Shown here one piece after another: positions 16,734 through 26,339 of a stretch of 64,000 nt of DNA. Under the pieces are notes generated by a model. It ran no database searches, had not been told where the DNA came from, and was given only the letters and a program-made list of their open reading frames with translations. The stretch is from Burkholderiales bacterium (lineage in GTDB: Bacteria; Pseudomonadota; Gammaproteobacteria; Burkholderiales; SG8-41): positions 1-64,000 of the forward strand of contig JAIEPF010000017.1 of NCBI GenBank assembly GCA_019749945.1, read 5' to 3'. The position numbers were made by a program, and so were the translations under genes. Numbering within the stretch: position 1 is the stretch's first letter; the number at the start of each line of letters is the position of its first letter.

Positions 16734-17900
16734 CTACTCCGCCAACTCCCGCATCACCTTGATCAGATCCGACTTGCCTTCAAACCCGATGCCCGGCAGC
16801 TCCGGCATGGTGATGAAGCTGTTTTCCACCTTGACGCCGTCCGGGAAGCCGCCATAGGGCTGGAACAGGTCGGGATAACTTTCGTTGCCGCCGAGGCCGA
16901 GGCCGGCGGCGATGTTGAGCGACATCTGGTGGCCGCCGTGCGGTATGCAGCGCGCGGGTGACCAGCCGGCGATTTTGAGTTCGCGCAGCGTGCGTTCGTA
17001 TTCACACAGGCCGTAGGACAGCGCGCAGTCAAACTGCAGCCAGTCACGATCCGGGCGCATGCCGCCGTAACGCAGCAGGTTGCGCGCGTCCTGGTGGCTG
17101 AACAGGTTTTCGCCGGTTGCCATCGGCCCCGGATAAAACTCCGCCAGCGCCGCCTGCAATGCAAAATCCAGCGGGTCGCCGGCTTCCTCGTACCAGAACA
17201 GCGGATAGTCGCGCAGCATCTTGGCGTAGGCGATGGCGGTTTCCAGGTCGAAACGGCCATTGGCATCGACGGCGAGCCGTGCGTCCTTGCCGATTTCGGC
17301 TAACACGGCTTCGATGCGCCGGCGGTCCTCGGCAATGTCGGCGCCGCCGATTTTCATCTTGACCACGCTGTAGCCGCGGTTGAGGTAGCCGCGCATTTCA
17401 TTGCGCAGCGCCTGCAGGTCCTTGCCCGGATAGTAATAACCGCCGGCGGCATAAACGAAGACTTTGGGATTCGCCGTGACACCATGCTGTTCGGCGAGCA
17501 GGCGGAACAGCGGTTTGCGCGCGATCTTGGCGACGGCATCCCAGATCGCCATGTCCAGCGTGCCGACCGCCACCGAACGTTCGCCGTGACCGCCGGGTTT
17601 TTCGTTTTGCATCATCGCGGCCCAGGCTTTGTGCGGATCGATGTTGTCACCGGTCGCGTTGAGCAGCGACGCGGGATCGGCTTCGAGCAGCCTTGGCGCG
17701 AAACGTTCGCGGATCAGTCCACCCTGGCCATAACGTCCGTTGGAGTTGAAGCCGTAACCGACGACGGTTCGGCCGTCGACTTTGACGTCGGTGACCACGG
17801 CGACCAGGCTGGTGGTCATTTTGCTGAAATCGATATAGGCGTTGCGGATCGGGGAGGCGATCGGTTTGGTGACTTCACGGACGTCGACGATGCGAACCAT
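16734..17900 (-). CDS. tarD: D-tartrate dehydratase-like enolase-superfamily enzyme
   Basis: A 388-residue member of the mandelate racemase/enolase superfamily. The N-terminal capping domain contains ASPIRNAYIDFSKMTTSLVAV. The barrel shows the KxK pair in VVKMKIGG, metal ligands in VDANGRFD, WYEEAGDP and MATGENLF, and the general-base His in CIPHGGHQMSLN. This is nearly the complete pattern I know from Bradyrhizobium D-(-)-tartrate dehydratase. The frame is open to 17945, but the ATG at 17900 (MVRIVDVREV) matches the family start. It is divergent from a Bug receptor gene that may supply the substrate. Confidence 0.85.
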   Translation of the reverse strand: MVRIVDVREVTKPIASPIRNAYIDFSKMTTSLVAVVTDVKVDGRTVVGYGFNSNGRYGQGGLIRERFAPRLLEADPASLLNATGDNIDPHKAWAAMMQNEKPGGHGERSVAVGTLDMAIWDAVAKIARKPLFRLLAEQHGVTANPKVFVYAAGGYYYPGKDLQALRNEMRGYLNRGYSVVKMKIGGADIAEDRRRIEAVLAEIGKDARLAVDANGRFDLETAIAYAKMLRDYPLFWYEEAGDPLDFALQAALAEFYPGPMATGENLFSHQDARNLLRYGGMRPDRDWLQFDCALSYGLCEYERTLRELKIAGWSPARCIPHGGHQMSLNIAAGLGLGGNESYPDLFQPYGGFPDGVKVENSFITMPELPGIGFEGKSDLIKVMRELAE

Positions 17901-18025
17901 GTCAAAAACTTTCGGTGGGAGGTGATGAGATCGTACAGTCCACATCTTAATTCAATACGACGATACGAAGCCAGACCGCGGTAAGATTGCAATCACAACA
18001 AAGCGTAAAAATGCGGGAGGACAAC

Positions 18026-19000
18026 ATGATGAAACTGCATTGGCCTGCATGCCTGATTGCACTGTGTGCGGTGTCCGTCAGCGCGCCTGTGGTGGCTGCA
18101 GACCAGTATCCGCAGCGCCCGGTGCGCCTGGTCATTCCCTACCCGCCCGGCGGCGCCGGCGACATCGTCGGCCGTCTGCTCGGCAGCAGCCTGAGCGCGG
18201 CGATGGGCCAGCAGTTCGTCAGCGACAACCGCGGCGGCGGCGGGCAGATCATTGCCACGCAGATCAGCGCCAATGCGGCCCCCGACGGCTACACGCTGTT
18301 CCTCGCCAGCGCCACCCACTCGATCAATCCGGCGCTGCGTAACAATCTGCCCTATGACACGCTGAAGGCTTTTGCGCCGATCACGCTGGTTGCCGAATCG
18401 CCGCTGGTGTTCGTCGCCCATCCGTCGCTGAAAGCCACCAGCATCAGGGAACTCATTGCGCTGGCGAAAGCGCAGCCCGGCCGCATCAATTACGCATCCT
18501 CCGGCCCCGGTACCGGCGGACACATGTCGGTCGAGCTGCTGAAATCGCTGACCGGAATCAATCTCGTGCATATTCCGTACAAGGGCGCGGGCCCGGCGCT
18601 GGTCGATGTGCTGGCCGGCCAGGTGCAGATGATCTGCACCAGTCCGCTGCCTGCGATGCCGCATGTCAAGTCGGGGCGCTTGCGCGCGCTGGGCATGACC
18701 AGCCTGCAGCGTTCGCCGGCACACCCTGACGTGCCGCCGGTCGCCGAAACGGTGCCGGGTTACCAGTCGACGCTGTGGTACGCGCTGCTGGCGCCGGCAG
18801 GCACACCTCAGCCCATCATCAGGAAGGTGCATGGCGAAACAGTGAAGGCACTGGCTGCGCCGCAGATGCGCGAACAGCTGCTGGCGCTGGGGGCCACACC
18901 GGTCGGCAACAATCCGCAGGAATTGCAGAATTTCATGCGCGACGAAATCGCGCTGTGGACCAGGCTGGTGAAGCAGGCCAATATCCGGCTGGATCCCTGA
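18026..19000 (+). CDS. Bug/TctC-family periplasmic substrate-binding receptor
   Basis: A 324-residue tripartite-tricarboxylate-type receptor, a family hugely expanded in betaproteobacteria. The signal peptide covers residues 1-25 (ending SAPVVAADQYP). Hallmarks are RPVRLVIPYPPGGAGDIVGR, DNRGGGGQII, PDGYTLFLAS, INYASSGPGTGGHMSVEL, PYKGAGPALVDVLAGQVQM and the C-terminal LAPAGTP region. The ATG at 18026 follows GGGAGG by 6 nt; upstream in-frame codons are rejected. It is first in an apparent operon with the selenoprotein and its partner. No TctA/TctB permease is in the window, as is common for orphan Bug proteins. Confidence 0.93.
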   Translation: MMKLHWPACLIALCAVSVSAPVVAADQYPQRPVRLVIPYPPGGAGDIVGRLLGSSLSAAMGQQFVSDNRGGGGQIIATQISANAAPDGYTLFLASATHSINPALRNNLPYDTLKAFAPITLVAESPLVFVAHPSLKATSIRELIALAKAQPGRINYASSGPGTGGHMSVELLKSLTGINLVHIPYKGAGPALVDVLAGQVQMICTSPLPAMPHVKSGRLRALGMTSLQRSPAHPDVPPVAETVPGYQSTLWYALLAPAGTPQPIIRKVHGETVKALAAPQMREQLLALGATPVGNNPQELQNFMRDEIALWTRLVKQANIRLDP

Positions 19001-19025: not shown

Positions 19026-19568
19026 ATGACCGCAACCATCATGCTTTATGACCCGACTGCACCGCGCGGCGGCCCTTCACAGGCTGCTGCCGTGCCTGCG
19101 AAAAAAACCGTGCTGGCCGGCGCCGTGATCGGTTTCATCGACAATGCCAAACCCAATTTCAACCACCTCGTCGACGATCTCGCCGAACTGCTGGTCAGCC
19201 GTTATGGCGCGGCACGGGTGGTCAAGCGGCGCAAATCCTCGGCGTCGATTCCCGCCGATGCCAAAGTGATTGCAGAGTTGTCCGGCGAATGTGATGTGGT
19301 GATCGCCGGCTCCGGCGACTGAGGGTCCTGTTCGTCGTGGAGTGTCCACGACAGCATCGAAGTGACCAAGCAGGGCAAGGCCGCCATCACCGTCTGTTCG
19401 ACGGCCTTCCTGACACTGGGCCGCGCGCAGGCGCGCGCGCTGGGCAACGGCGCATTGCCGATTGCGGTGATTCCGCACCCCTTCGGCGGACGCAAACGCG
19501 AGGAGGTGCGGAAAATTGCCGAACAATGCGCCGATGACATCGCCAAGCTGCTGGGAGGGGCGGCATGA
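19026..19568 (+). CDS. UGSC-family selenoprotein (in-frame UGA read as selenocysteine)
   Basis: Reading the TGA at 19320-19322 as Sec joins two same-frame ORFs into one 180-residue protein. Residues 98-102 are then D-U-G-S-C, the motif that names the known UGSC (seleno)protein family. The N-terminal part has a Rossmann-like strand-turn (VLAGAVIGFIDNAKPNFNHL) and a second alpha/beta unit ending ECDVVIAGSGD. After Sec come SSWSVHDSIEVTKQGK and VIPHPFGGRKREEV. A hairpin starting 11 nt after the TGA fits a bacterial SECIS. GAGG precedes the ATG, and the final TGA overlaps the next start codon (ATGA). The Sec/Cys pair suggests redox chemistry; the reaction is unknown. The sel genes must lie elsewhere. 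Confidence 0.88.
19320..19352 (+). promoter_or_regulatory. Sec UGA codon and SECIS-like hairpin
   Basis: The TGA at 19320-19322 is followed after 11 nt by the perfect 8-bp stem GTCGTGGA / TCCACGAC (19334-19341 and 19345-19352) with the loop GTG. Bacterial SECIS elements are short stem-loops just downstream of UGA with a G (often GU) at the loop start, recognised by SelB; this one fits in distance and loop. Confidence 0.82.
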
Positions 19569-20620
19569 ACGCAACACCCGCCGATCGCGCCGCGACCTTC
19601 GAGGCGCCCGACGATGTCGACGCCATCAACCGGATCTACCGTGACAAGCGCTGGAGCGACGGCCTGCCCATCGTGCCGCCGACCGCGGCGCGGGTCGAGC
19701 GCATGCTGCAGGCCACACGGCGTAAGCGCGATGAGGTCATCGCCAGCGTTGCGCCGGGTTTCGGCGCGGCCACGGTCGAACGCATCGCGATCAACGCGGT
19801 GCTCGCCGGTTGTGATCCCGAATGCCTGCCGGTGCTGATCGCGGCAACAGCGGCGGTGGCCGACCCGGCATTCAATCTGCAGGGCATCCAGGCGACGACC
19901 AATCCGGTCGCCGTGTGGCTGGTGATCAACGGTCCGCTGGCACGGCAGTTGCAGGTCAATGCCGGCTTCAACTGCATCGGCCAGGGCGCATGGGCCAATG
20001 CCACGCTGGGGCGCGCGATGCGATTGATCCTGCAGAACATCGGCGGCGCGCTGCCCGGCGAGATGGATCGCGCGACCCACGGCCAGCCCGGCAAGTACAG
20101 CTTCTGCTGCGCCGAGAACGAGGACAACCATCCCTGGCAGCCGCTGCATGTCGAACGCGGTTTTGCCGCCACCGAGAGCACGGTGACCGTGGTCGGCGCC
20201 GAAGGCACGATGAACATGAACACCCATGCCAAAACCGCCGACGAACTGGCGCGGGTGATCGCCGAAACCATGGTGCATCCGCCCAGCAACGAATATGTGC
20301 ATGGCGGTGAACCGTGGTTCATCCTCGGCACTGAACACGCCGAGATTTTCCGCCGTGAAGGCTGGGACAAGCCGCGGGTCAAGCGCGAACTGTGGCAACG
20401 CTCGAAGATGGCGGTCAAACACCTGAGCTTCAACGAAATCGAACGTGCACGCGCTTCACGCACGCCCGAACTCGGCCCCTTGTCGGAGGACACGCTGTTG
20501 CCGATTTCCCCGCGGCCGGAGGACATCCAGCTGATCGTCGCCGGCGGTCCGGGTACACACTCGGTGTATGTGCCCTGTTTTGGCAATACCCGTGCTGTCA
20601 CCTGCCGGATTGAGGATTAG
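19565..20620 (+). CDS. Conserved protein translationally coupled to the selenoprotein
   Basis: A 351-residue soluble protein with no signal peptide. Its ATG overlaps the selenoprotein stop (ATGA), so coordinated synthesis is likely. Notable segments are KRWSDGLPIVPPTAARVERML at the N-terminus, AGCDPECLPVLIAA, GFNCIGQGAWANATLGRA, KYSFCCAENEDNHPW and the C-terminal IQLIVAGGPGTHS. Seven Cys, including a CC pair, are spread over these segments. It has the look of an enzyme subunit working with the selenoprotein. I recognise no characterised family; association with UGSC proteins is inferred from the gene order here. Confidence 0.8.
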   Translation: MNATPADRAATFEAPDDVDAINRIYRDKRWSDGLPIVPPTAARVERMLQATRRKRDEVIASVAPGFGAATVERIAINAVLAGCDPECLPVLIAATAAVADPAFNLQGIQATTNPVAVWLVINGPLARQLQVNAGFNCIGQGAWANATLGRAMRLILQNIGGALPGEMDRATHGQPGKYSFCCAENEDNHPWQPLHVERGFAATESTVTVVGAEGTMNMNTHAKTADELARVIAETMVHPPSNEYVHGGEPWFILGTEHAEIFRREGWDKPRVKRELWQRSKMAVKHLSFNEIERARASRTPELGPLSEDTLLPISPRPEDIQLIVAGGPGTHSVYVPCFGNTRAVTCRIED

Positions 20621-20755: not shown

Positions 20756-20778
20756 GTGTAGTGAACGATGCACTACGC
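20756..20778. promoter_or_regulatory. Candidate operator (inverted repeat) before the XRE gene
   Basis: The arms GTAGTG and CACTAC are separated by 7 nt (20758-20776) and extend with one mismatch to 8-bp arms. The position, just upstream of the regulator start at 20798, suits autoregulation. No experimental support. Confidence 0.45.
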
Positions 20779-20797
20779 AAATACCGGAGCAGACACC

Positions 20798-21259
20798 ATG
20801 GGCAGAGGGCGTATCAAGGCCGAACCGGGCGATCCGAATAATTCGATCGCCACCCGCATCCGCACCGCGATGGCGGCGTGCGGCATGAAATCCGTTGCCG
20901 AACTGGGTCGCCGCATCGGGCTGCCGCGGCAGACGGTGCATCGCTGGATCAACGGCGATACCAAGAACATGACCCATGAAAACCTCTACAAGGTTGCCGA
21001 TGCGCTGCAGGTGCGCGCGCGCTGGCTGGCCGTGGGTGATGCCGCCCCGACGCAGATCGACCTCGGTGAAGGTGATGTGGTCGGTCTGATCAAAATCTAC
21101 GAATCGATGTCGATGGCTGCGCGTGAACAGTGGCTTGCCATCGGCCGCACCCTGCTGTCGATGCACACGGTGGGCAAGGGCACTGCGGTGGATCCCTATC
21201 CGAATGCCGCGCCCTTGCCGCCGCTGCAGGAACCCGCGACCTCGCCGAACCATCGCTGA
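20798..21259 (+). CDS. XRE-family transcriptional regulator
   Basis: A 153-residue protein. A Cro/CI-type helix-turn-helix occupies about residues 20-75 (SVAELGRRIGLPRQTVHRWINGDTK, then MTHENLYKVADALQVRARWLAVGD), as in repressors with the phage-like LARWLxxGD end. The C-terminal half is a short helical tail ending in a Pro-rich stretch. The frame extends to an ATG at 20768, but that start lies inside the inverted repeat; the ATG at 20798 follows GGAGC. Target genes are unknown; the neighbouring selenoprotein operon is one candidate. Confidence 0.85.
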   Translation: MGRGRIKAEPGDPNNSIATRIRTAMAACGMKSVAELGRRIGLPRQTVHRWINGDTKNMTHENLYKVADALQVRARWLAVGDAAPTQIDLGEGDVVGLIKIYESMSMAAREQWLAIGRTLLSMHTVGKGTAVDPYPNAAPLPPLQEPATSPNHR

Positions 21260-22427: not shown

Positions 22428-23501
22428 TCAGTGCTGCGGCCGCGCCGCCGCCGGATGCCGCGGAAAGGCGACCAGATGGTCGAGTTCGAGCCGGATGCCG
22501 ATTTTTTCGCCGATGGCATGGTTGTGGTGGCTCGGCACCAGTGAATACACCAGCCCGCCGTCGGGCAGGCGCAAGGTGTAGAGAAACTCCGCGCCGCGGA
22601 AGGCCTTGTGCAGCACCGTGGCCTGCATCGGGCTCGCGTCGTCGTGCAGCACATCGTCGGGCCGTAGCAGCACATCAACCGCGGTTCCGGCCGGCCAGCG
22701 CGCGGCTGTGCCCGGCACGAATTCGCCGAGTTCGAGCCGGATCTGGCCGTTGTCGATGATGGTGCCCGGCAGGAACAGGCCCTGGCCGATGAAATCCGCG
22801 GCATAACGCGTCTGCGGTTCGTGATAAATCCGGTACGGCGTATCCCATTGCTCGATGCGGCCGTCCTTCATGATGCCGACCATGTCGGCGATGTTGAAGG
22901 CCTCGTGCTGGTCATGGGTGACCAGCACCGCGGTGATTTTTTCGCGTTTGAGGATGTCGCGGACTTCGATGCTCAGCCGTTCGCGCATTTCAACGTCGAG
23001 GTTGGAGAAGGGTTCGTCGAGCAGCAGCAGTTGCGGGCGCGGCGCCAGCGCGCGGGCGAGGGCGACACGCTGCTGCTGGCCGCCGGACAGTTCCTGCGGA
23101 TATTTGTCGCCTTGATCGGCAAGGCCGACCACCGCCAGCATTTCACGCACCCGCTCATCGCGTTCGTCGGCTGTGGCCCCGCGCAGGCCGAAAGCGATAT
23201 TGCCGGCGACGGTCAGGTGCGGGAACAGCGCGTAATCCTGGAATACCACGCCGATGCGGCGCTGTTCCGGCGGCAGCAGCAGGTTTTTTGCACTCATCAC
23301 CACGCCGTCCAGCGCCACGGTGCCGCCCAGCACCGGCTCAAAGCCGGCGATGCAGCGCAGTACGGTGGTTTTGCCGCAGCCGCTGGCGCCTAGGAGGCAG
23401 GCGATCATGCCGGGTTCGACCTCGAAGCTGACGCCCTGCAGCACCGGCGTGCGGTCATAGGCGTGGCAGACATCGGTGAAGGCGAGACGTGCGGTCATCA
23501 T
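22428..23501 (-). CDS. fbpC: Iron(III) ABC transporter ATP-binding protein
   Basis: A 357-residue ABC ATPase powering ferric-ion uptake. Walker A is LLGASGCGKTTVLRCIAG, the Q-loop region GVVFQDYALFPH, the signature LSGGQQQRVALARAL, Walker B LLLLDEPFSNLD, and the switch His VTHDQHEAF. The C-terminal regulatory (TOBE-like) domain runs from about 240. It is divergent from the permease gene with a Fur-box-like sequence between them. Confidence 0.93.
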   Translation of the reverse strand: MMTARLAFTDVCHAYDRTPVLQGVSFEVEPGMIACLLGASGCGKTTVLRCIAGFEPVLGGTVALDGVVMSAKNLLLPPEQRRIGVVFQDYALFPHLTVAGNIAFGLRGATADERDERVREMLAVVGLADQGDKYPQELSGGQQQRVALARALAPRPQLLLLDEPFSNLDVEMRERLSIEVRDILKREKITAVLVTHDQHEAFNIADMVGIMKDGRIEQWDTPYRIYHEPQTRYAADFIGQGLFLPGTIIDNGQIRLELGEFVPGTAARWPAGTAVDVLLRPDDVLHDDASPMQATVLHKAFRGAEFLYTLRLPDGGLVYSLVPSHHNHAIGEKIGIRLELDHLVAFPRHPAAARPQH

Positions 23502-23524
23502 TAAATTATAGCGGTTTTGCCGCT

Positions 23525-23543
23525 GATAATGATTCTTGTTAAA
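23525..23543. promoter_or_regulatory. Fur-box-like operator between fbpC and fbpB
   Basis: GATAATGATTCTTGTTAAA, followed by AATGATTTTCTCAT, resembles the GATAATGATAATCATTATC consensus with overlapping hexamers. It is placed to repress both divergent genes when iron is plentiful. Confidence 0.7.
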
Positions 23544-23616
23544 ATGATTTTCTCATAAATTTCCGTAACTTACGCGCGCTGTTCCTGCATTTCAGATCAC
23601 AACGAGCCGATACCCG

Positions 23617-25308
23617 GTGACCACCACTACATTCCCGCAGCCTGTCACAGCCGCATCCCTGATGCGCGCACGCCTGCCGCGGCTGCTGACGGTTTTTGCC
23701 GTCGCGCTGGCTGTGGTGCTGGCGATGCCGGTACTCGTGGTGTTGTTCAACCTGCTGACGCCTTCCACCGACACCTGGCGCCATCTTGCGAGCACGGTGC
23801 TCGGCGACTACATCATCAATTCGCTGCTGCTCATGCTCGGCGTCGCGTTCGGCGTGATCATCGGCGGTGTTTCCACGGCGTGGCTGACCACCATGTGCCG
23901 GTTTCCGGGGCGCCGTGTGTTCGAATGGGCATTGCTGCTGCCGATGGCGGTGCCGGCGTACGTGATGGCCTATGCCTATACCGATCTCCTGCAGTTTGCC
24001 GGTCCGGTGCAATCATTGTTGCGCGAACTGACCGGCTGGGGTGTGCGCGAATACTGGTTTCCCGATGTGCGTTCTCTGGGCGGCGCCATCGTCATGCTGG
24101 CGCTGGTGCTGTATCCCTATGTGTATCTGCTGGCGCGCGCGGCTTTCCTCGAACAGTCCGACAGCATGCTGGAAGTGGCGCGGGTGTCGGGTTACGGGCC
24201 CTGGGGCTCCTTTCGCCGCGTCGCGCTGCCGCTGGCGCGCCCGGGCATCGTCGCCGGCACCGCGCTGGCGCTGATGGAGGCGCTGGCCGATTACGGCACG
24301 GTGGCGTATTTCGGCGTGCAGACCTTTACCACCGGTATTTTCCGCGCCTGGTTTTCGCTGGGCGACCACACGGCGGCGGCTCAGCTGTCGGCGATGCTGC
24401 TCGGTTTCGTGTTCCTGCTGCTGCTGCTCGAACGCATCAGCCGCCGCGGCGCGGCCTTCCATTCGACCTCGCACCGCAGGCGCCTGCGCAATGTCTATCA
24501 GCTGCGCGGCGTACGCGCCGTGCTGGCCGTACTGTTCTGCGTGGTGCCGCTGGTATTCGGCTTCCTGCTGCCGGTGGGCGTGATGGCGCACATGGCGATC
24601 ACCTCGGGCGATGCCCAGTTCGGCGCGCGTTACCTGACGCTGACCGGCAACACGGTGACGCTGGCCGCGGTCACGGCCGGTCTCGCGGTGCTGCTGGCGC
24701 TGGTGGTCGGTTATGCCGGACGCGTGTCGCCGACGCGGCTGGTGCGCGCGGCGAACCGCATTGCCGGCCTCGGTTATGCGGTGCCGGGCGCGGTGATCGC
24801 CGTCGGTGTGCTGATCCCGGTGACCCGGCTCGATCATGTGCTGGCGGGCTGGATCGAAGCGGCAACCGGCGCCAATCCCGGCCTGATCCTGACCGGCGGC
24901 ATCGCCGCGCTGGTCTATGCCTACCTCGCGCGGTTTTTTGCGGTGGCGCTGCAGGCGGTGGATGCGGGCCTCGCCAAGATCACACCGTCGATGAATGATG
25001 CCGCGCGCTCCATGGGCCTCGGGCCGGGCGAGACGCTGGCGCGGGTGCATGCGCCGCTGCTGTGGCGCAGCGCGCTGACGGCGGGGCTGCTGGTGTTTGT
25101 CGATGTGATGAAGGAACTGCCGGCCACCTTCGTCATGCGGCCGTTCAATTTCGACACGCTGGCGGTGCAGGCCTACAACCTGGCGTCCGATGAGCGGCTC
25201 GCCGAAGCGTCAACGGCAGCGCTCACCATCGTGCTGGCGGGGCTGCTGCCGTTGATCGTGCTGTCGCGGATGATACTCAGGCCGGGGCCAGGGCATCATC
25301 GTGACTGA
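23617..25308 (+). CDS. fbpB: Iron(III) ABC transporter permease (fused two-domain)
   Basis: A 563-residue inner-membrane permease made of two tandem BPD-type domains, each with about six membrane segments and an EAA-type loop. The first is LEVARVSGYGPWGSFRRVALPLARPGI; the second is MNDAARSMGLGPGETLARVHAPLL. This fused arrangement is typical of FbpB/SfuB. The GTG start at 23617 lacks a strong ribosome site; no better start is seen. It converges with the binding-protein gene. Confidence 0.93.
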   Translation: MTTTTFPQPVTAASLMRARLPRLLTVFAVALAVVLAMPVLVVLFNLLTPSTDTWRHLASTVLGDYIINSLLLMLGVAFGVIIGGVSTAWLTTMCRFPGRRVFEWALLLPMAVPAYVMAYAYTDLLQFAGPVQSLLRELTGWGVREYWFPDVRSLGGAIVMLALVLYPYVYLLARAAFLEQSDSMLEVARVSGYGPWGSFRRVALPLARPGIVAGTALALMEALADYGTVAYFGVQTFTTGIFRAWFSLGDHTAAAQLSAMLLGFVFLLLLLERISRRGAAFHSTSHRRRLRNVYQLRGVRAVLAVLFCVVPLVFGFLLPVGVMAHMAITSGDAQFGARYLTLTGNTVTLAAVTAGLAVLLALVVGYAGRVSPTRLVRAANRIAGLGYAVPGAVIAVGVLIPVTRLDHVLAGWIEAATGANPGLILTGGIAALVYAYLARFFAVALQAVDAGLAKITPSMNDAARSMGLGPGETLARVHAPLLWRSALTAGLLVFVDVMKELPATFVMRPFNFDTLAVQAYNLASDERLAEASTAALTIVLAGLLPLIVLSRMILRPGPGHHRD

Positions 25309-25325
25309 ATGCAGTTACGGAAAAA

Positions 25326-26339
25326 TTACTTGTAGCCGACGCGGTCGAATATTTTCTGCGCGACCGGCTGGTTCTTGCCGAGCAGGCCGATGTTCAGCGT
25401 ATCCATCTTGAACGTGCCCAGCGAGGCCAGTGCCTTGTTGTTCAGCGCCACGCCCTTGACCACCGGCCATTCATTGTTGCCTTCGGCGAAATAAGTCTGC
25501 GCGTCGTTGCCGGTCAGGTATTCCAGGAATTTGACCGCGGCCTCCTTGTTGCGCGCCGTCTTGATCACGCCGGCGCCGGAGACGTTCATGTGGGTGCCGA
25601 AACTTTTCTGGTTGGGCCAGATCAGACCGGTGGCCTCGATGATCTTGCGGTCCTCGGGCTTGGTCGATTTCATCAGCCGCACGTAGTAATAGGTGTTGGT
25701 GATCGCCACGCCGCATTCGCCCGAAGCCACGGCGGTGATCTGGTCGGTATCGCCGCCTTTGGGCGCGCGCGCGAAGTTGTCGACCACGCCTTTGGCCCAT
25801 TGCTCGGCGCGGGCTTCGCCGAGATGTTCGATCAGCGCGCTCATCAATGACAGGTTGTAGATATGGCTGCCGGAACGCGTGCAGACCTTGCCCTTCATTT
25901 TCGGATTGGCGAGGTCTTCGTAGTTCTGCACGTCGGCGGGGTTGACCGTGAGCTTGTTGTAGACAATGACGCGGGCGCGGGCCGAGAAGCCGAACCACTG
26001 GCCGTCGGCGGTGCGCATGTTGGCGGGCAGGCGCTCGTTCAGCACTTTGGACTGGATGGGCTGGAACAGTCCCGCCTGTTCGGCGCGCCACAGCCGGCCG
26101 GCATCCACGGTCACCAGCACGTCGGCCGGGCTGGCCGCGCCTTCATTGATGATGCGCGCGATCAGCGGATCTTCACCGGCTTCGATGCGGTTCAGCCTGA
26201 TGCCGGTGGTTTTGCTGAAGTTGCTGTACAGCGCTTCATCCGTCTGGTAATGACGTGAGGAGTACAGGTTGAGCTCCTGCGCTACGGCGCCGGTCGCGAA
26301 CAGTCCGGCCAGCGCAAAGGTCAGGGTGCTGAGGCGCAT
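25326..26339 (-). CDS. fbpA: Periplasmic iron(III)-binding protein
   Basis: A 337-residue ferric-ion binding protein of the class II periplasmic receptors. The signal peptide is residues 1-20 (ending GAVAQELN). LNLYSSRHYQTDEALYSNF opens the mature protein, and NTYYYVRL holds the paired tyrosines that coordinate Fe(III). PADVLVTVDAGRLWRAEQAG and GTHMNVSGAGVIKTARNK are also family typical. It is transcribed toward its permease gene from a region with two Fur-box-like sequences. Its ribosome site (AAAAGGATATT) lies within a copy of the AT-rich dispersed motif. Confidence 0.95.
   Translation of the reverse strand: MRLSTLTFALAGLFATGAVAQELNLYSSRHYQTDEALYSNFSKTTGIRLNRIEAGEDPLIARIINEGAASPADVLVTVDAGRLWRAEQAGLFQPIQSKVLNERLPANMRTADGQWFGFSARARVIVYNKLTVNPADVQNYEDLANPKMKGKVCTRSGSHIYNLSLMSALIEHLGEARAEQWAKGVVDNFARAPKGGDTDQITAVASGECGVAITNTYYYVRLMKSTKPEDRKIIEATGLIWPNQKSFGTHMNVSGAGVIKTARNKEAAVKFLEYLTGNDAQTYFAEGNNEWPVVKGVALNNKALASLGTFKMDTLNIGLLGKNQPVAQKIFDRVGYK

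Follow-up and report, generated by a model that had tools for sequence, protein, structure and literature searches.

The window analysed here, 64,000 nucleotides at the start of contig JAIEPF010000017.1 of a Burkholderiales bacterium (assembly GCA_019749945.1), carries a gene that is interrupted by an in-frame TGA (Table 1). The original prediction was that two open reading frames in the same frame are joined across this codon to give the motif D-U-G-S-C, and that the product is a selenoprotein of the UGSC type. Indeed, 19026-19568 reads as a single frame, MTATIMLYDP...VIAGSGD-U-GSCSSWSVHDSIEV...LLGGAA, in which the TGA at 19320-19322 is the sole internal stop, the terminal stop being another TGA at 19566-19568. 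The translated protein scores 163.6 bits against PF24696 (cut-off 25) and 129.3 bits against NF041046 (cut-off 125), the two profiles of the UGSC family. D-U-G-S-C occupies residues 98-102, in keeping with the family pattern of Sec or Cys followed by G-[SAG]-C, and residues U99, G100 and C102 are invariant in an alignment of 53 members. As judged from its sequence, the gene is a genuine selenoprotein gene of this known family, and the TGA conservation, hairpin and selenocysteine machinery described below all agree with the predicted assignment.

Table 1. Features at and around the selenoprotein gene (positions in the window)
Feature	Position	Strand	Remarks
Enolase-superfamily (MR/MLE) dehydratase-like neighbour, divergent	16734..17945	-	PF13378 E 4e-31; conserved in 9 loci
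TctC/Bug-type periplasmic solute-binding protein	17987..19000	+	PF03401 E 1.7e-68; ends 25 nt before the selenoprotein gene
UGSC-family selenoprotein gene	19026..19568	+	180 residues, Sec is residue 99; PF24696 E 6e-48
In-frame UGA read as selenocysteine (D-U-G-S-C)	19320..19322	+	TGA in relatives; Cys in homologues where the genome lacks SelB
Bacterial SECIS hairpin	19334..19352	+	8-bp stem closed by a GTG loop; begins 11 nt past the UGA
Partner protein, 351 aa, unnamed family	19565..20620	+	ATG overlaps the UGSC stop as ATGA
Cro/CI-type HTH regulator	20768..21259	+	PF13443/PF01381; in 9 loci; conserved downstream of the module in close orthologues only

The homologue set consisted of 71 related loci from one scan of a genome collection, together with the paralogues from the window's own genome. 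The homologous codon is TGA in all 87 related genes (79 loci) in which the position could be read. Cysteine is found instead (CGSC) in L113, L116 and L117, as well as in plasmid copies from haloarchaea, actinobacteria and Roseovarius. Homologues thus keep either Sec or Cys at this position, as expected of a selenoprotein when the alignment with Cys-containing relatives was proposed as a check. The four components of the selenocysteine machinery that had likewise been proposed for a search are all present in the window's genome: selA (577 bits), selB (428 bits), selD (420 bits) and tRNA-Sec, the selC product (75.9 bits). The selD gene (G000:C33:53021-53947, L015) itself contains one in-frame TGA. 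Five genomes outside the bacterial family of the window, from a draw of 399, have a UGSC gene; SelB was found in both of those with UGA copies and was absent from all three with Cys copies. Within the family, represented by MAG-like drafts, SelB was found in 67 of 74 genomes. Isolates carrying the Sec form include Paracoccus versutus, P. ferrooxidans and Acidovorax sp. T1, and the Cys form occurs in isolates of Arthrobacter, Roseovarius and Natrinema. One UGSC paralogue of the window's genome (G000:C32:29068-29565; L099, around 7330) reads UGSS: Sec is kept and the resolving Cys is replaced by Ser. The same genome holds a second selenoprotein candidate, a PrdB-like gene (G000:C37:156441-156803, L120) with an in-frame UGA at LTPV-U-PNC, which matches TIGR04483 with an E value of 9.6e-34, under the cut-off.

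The perfect 8-bp stem with a GTG loop that had been noticed 11 nt past the TGA was recovered at exactly these positions, with the stem halves GTCGTGGA (19334-19341) and TCCACGAC (19345-19352) on either side of the loop (19342-19344). An Rfam search of the window returned no SECIS match. Compared with synonymous-codon shuffles, the hairpin is more stable by a mean z of -2.05 in the 90 genes that have the SW motif and of -0.95 in the 37 others, and four control offsets in the same genes gave z values of -0.39 to +0.01. In the hairpin columns 95% of the cells pair, as against 15-58% in slid registers, and compensatory changes were observed, among them a double change from TGG/GTC to a TGC/GTG pair. 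Judged by these comparisons, the arrangement of hairpin and UGA is not a matter of chance. It could still be argued that the UGA is an ordinary nonsense codon, arising from pseudogene formation or an assembly error, and that two truncated proteins or none are made, since TGA also serves as an ordinary stop codon and ends 60 of the 87 UGSC genes. Yet the internal TGA is retained in every relative, down to 24% identity, the frame is intact on both sides of it, the hairpin is conserved with covariation and the genome encodes the Sec machinery. The unbroken conservation of the codon leads us to reject a nonsense mutation, whose probability we regard as negligible. Genome-wide recoding of UGA was rejected too, because TGA is the usual stop in most UGSC genes. 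The comparative data thus indicate clearly that the product is synthesized with recoding of the UGA at a SECIS hairpin.

It had been anticipated that automatic annotation would split such a gene, and this is what is seen on plasmid pFER4 of Paracoccus ferrooxidans, where the orthologue is annotated as two consecutive hypothetical proteins; that of Acidovorax sp. T1 plasmid p2-T1 is annotated as one truncated hypothetical protein. UGA is therefore read as a stop in some public annotations, and such proteins are truncated in, or absent from, databases. The pFER4 locus (L190, 5420-12167) carries the UGA-containing UGSC gene, its partner and a selB gene on one plasmid.

The observation and the selenoprotein reading of the original prediction stand, and what it missed are a partner gene, an expansion of the family and a link to thioredoxin reductase. 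The partner lies on the same strand within about 500 nt at 85 of 87 UGSC loci, the remaining two lying at contig ends, and in 30 of the 87 the two are fused as a single open reading frame. It is also adjacent at all six loci examined from genomes outside the family, and the pairing extends to plasmid-borne Cys forms from haloarchaea, Arthrobacter, Roseovarius and Variovorax. This recurrence identifies the UGSC protein, at the level of gene organization, as one half of a conserved two-part module with the 351-residue partner, often made as one polypeptide. Profile searches with the partner gave no Pfam or NCBIfam match, and a PDB sequence search found nothing meaningful for UGSC, partner or fusion. 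The most conserved residues of the partner include D32, G33, P35, T40, G82, G123, P124, G149, R150, N158, P164, E184 and W191. None of its cysteines is invariant in the conservation analysis. At five loci (L185, L195, L198, L214 and L098) one UGSC gene is accompanied by two partner genes in tandem, which may encode a partner heterodimer. A 2008 paper on the GOS data described a fusion of UGSC with an unknown domain, Unknown_1 (PMC2398784); this domain is probably the same protein as the partner.

Given the short gap to the upstream TctC gene and the ATGA overlap with the partner, the three genes have the appearance of a single operon. Of the 87 modules, 58 are flanked by a TctC gene, and such genes account for 41% of module flanks versus roughly 5% of genes, an enrichment of about eight-fold. 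The window's genome, 3.59 Mb in size, contains at least 150 TctC/Bug solute-binding genes (217 candidates), so that adjacency to one of them is by itself a weak functional clue. Other neighbours of the modules are catabolic (CoA-transferases, amidohydrolases, PEP-mutase-type lyases and flavin oxidoreductases) and point to small organic acids as substrates. Further downstream in the window, 22428-26339 encodes an ABC transporter set (ATPase, permease and Fe(III)-type binding protein) that resembles the FbpABC iron uptake system by its translation only.

The window's genome has nine UGSC loci, each with one UGA and each beside a partner gene. The copy in the window shares no more than 40% identity with any of its own paralogues, against 85-91% with the nearest counterparts from other genomes, showing that the copies are old. 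The gene is present in every one of the 74 genomes of the bacterial family, in 1 to about 50 copies each, for a total of at least 1,081 UGSC matches (summed from the per-genome table), and in only 5 of 398 other genomes of the phylum. The genome G049, a MAG of 5.7 Mb (98% complete, 2% contamination), contains 53 distinct UGA copies, 51 of them without another stop, with a partner nearby for all except one. Their median nearest-neighbour identity is 63%, which shows that they are not strain duplicates. By comparison, a survey of over 5,200 bacteria published in 2016 listed 33 UGSC genes from 26 organisms (PMC5029168). For entire selenoproteomes, a 2026 review gives record sizes of 57 and 63 genes, the larger of these coming from a MAG (PMC13188914). 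As G049 is a MAG too, its copy number should be regarded as provisional.

Immediately after selB, the window's genome has a gene for a thioredoxin reductase (TrxR)-like flavoprotein containing a CxxC motif; this gene belongs to the sel locus and does not adjoin the module of the window. The order selA-selB-trxR was found in 13 of 13 sampled family genomes (12 and the window's own; one row is cut at a contig end), with tRNA-Sec detected at most of these loci, and in this family the Sec locus seems to include the TrxR-like gene. The conserved rows are those at 7602-14498 of L014 (G000:C39) and in L199-L211. In G039 the row runs on into partner-UGSC, and G212 has trxR-UGSC-partner. Outside these arrangements, the gene order is trxB-trxA-partner-UGSC in Arthrobacter and partner-UGSC-trxB in Roseovarius; trxB lies within the gene row of the module in Variovorax SRS16, and TrxR-like genes accompany the module in Haloterrigena and V. 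boronicumulans. Such recurring neighbours indicate that several bacterial and archaeal lineages tie TrxR to the UGSC module.

AlphaFold2 models were obtained for the window's UGSC protein (pLDDT 91.5, pTM 0.84) and for a natural UGSC-partner fusion (pLDDT 91.4, pTM 0.92). A beta-alpha unit is repeated five times in the models, with Sec-99 between strand 3 and the next helix. Foldseek returned generic alpha/beta matches only (P-loop GTPases, azoreductase/flavodoxin types and lumazine synthase); its 50 best hits included no thioredoxin fold, and for the fusion model nothing in the PDB matched at E<=0.001. The UGSC domain is thus predicted to be Rossmann-like, not thioredoxin-like, and the Trx-like fold suggested for it in the literature (PMC2398784) is not supported by these models.

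We consider it moderately probable that the pair works as a two-part reductase, supplied by TrxR, on small organic substrates that the cell imports, with the gene studied here encoding the Sec half. Sec-99, placed by the models where the third beta-strand of the Rossmann-like domain gives way to the following helix, would attack a small organic substrate bound together with conserved residues of the partner, D32, T40, R150, N158 and E184 being candidates. It would then form a selenenylsulfide with Cys-102 and be reduced again by NADPH through the TrxR-like CxxC flavoprotein, with or without thioredoxin. The dozens of diverged copies, often near TctC-type binding proteins and catabolic genes, would be isoenzymes for different imported substrates. 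We infer here the direction of the reaction, the substrate class and the U99-C102 cycle. Counting against this reading are the UGSS paralogue, which lacks the resolving Cys, the want of an invariant partner cysteine for a redox path inside the pair, and the distance between trxR and the module in the window's genome.

Among the alternatives, a non-redox reaction in which Sec is the nucleophile (of a lyase, transferase or dehalogenase, for example) and TrxR merely keeps it reduced would suit the lyases, CoA-transferases and amidohydrolases among the neighbours, and the UGSS paralogue that retains Sec, not Cys. We find it unlikely, as Cys-102 is nearly invariant apart from that paralogue and the TrxR linkage recurs across several lineages. 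The literature suggests an antioxidant of general function, thiol-disulfide or peroxide-reducing and with a Trx-like fold, to which the U-x-x-C motif and the linkage to TrxR and TrxA would lend themselves. Here, the two models, both with a pLDDT above 91, give a five-strand alternating beta-alpha domain instead, and a housekeeping role fits poorly with the partner, the dozens of divergent copies and the catabolic genes nearby, which makes such a function improbable.

The layout is also that of the glycine and D-proline reductases, and the pair might be a diverged GrdB/PrdB member that reductively cleaves amino-acid-like substrates; the best profile alignment even sets Sec on Sec. That alignment has an hhalign probability of 0.8%, although the PF07355 alignment is shallow (six sequences), none of 53 UGSC members listed PF07355 at E values up to 1, and the partner matches no Pfam or NCBIfam family. 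For want of profile support, membership in GrdB/PrdB was rejected, and we think it quite improbable.

To return to the TrxR-fed reductase, UGSC-partner proteins may well form a large, substrate-diversified class of TrxR-driven selenoenzymes and a main catabolic toolkit of one uncultured Burkholderiales-type family, whose genomes would hold as many as about 50 Sec isoenzymes apiece alongside a dedicated selA-selB-trxR-selC locus, although we stop a little short of calling this probable. If true, these would be among the largest single-family selenoproteomes known. We found no description of the scale of the expansion, the near-universal partner or the TrxR link in the openly readable literature searched, and as far as that literature shows they are undescribed. 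The partner subunit, the candidate electron donor, the new fold prediction and the expanded lineage make the function of UGSC directly testable.

GrdB and PrdB work with a companion subunit and thioredoxin reductase. The likeness of UGSC to these proteins (PF07355, TIGR04483) is one of analogy, with Sec in U-x-x-C, a companion subunit and TrxR in common; there is no detectable sequence homology, and the family search found no GrdE/PrdA-like partner. Thioredoxin-fold selenoproteins (Prx-like, Trx-like and DsbA-like) share the U-x-x-C redox motif and the association with TrxR, but differ in fold from the five-strand alternating beta-alpha domain predicted here, for which the Foldseek top 50 held no thioredoxin. 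The closest known system is the UGSC family itself (PF24696/NF041046), which has the same profile, the same U/C-G-S-C motif and the same domain size. Compared with the family as described (PMC2398784), the proteins studied here have a near-universal partner, a huge expansion, a link to thioredoxin reductase and a predicted fold that is not Trx-like.
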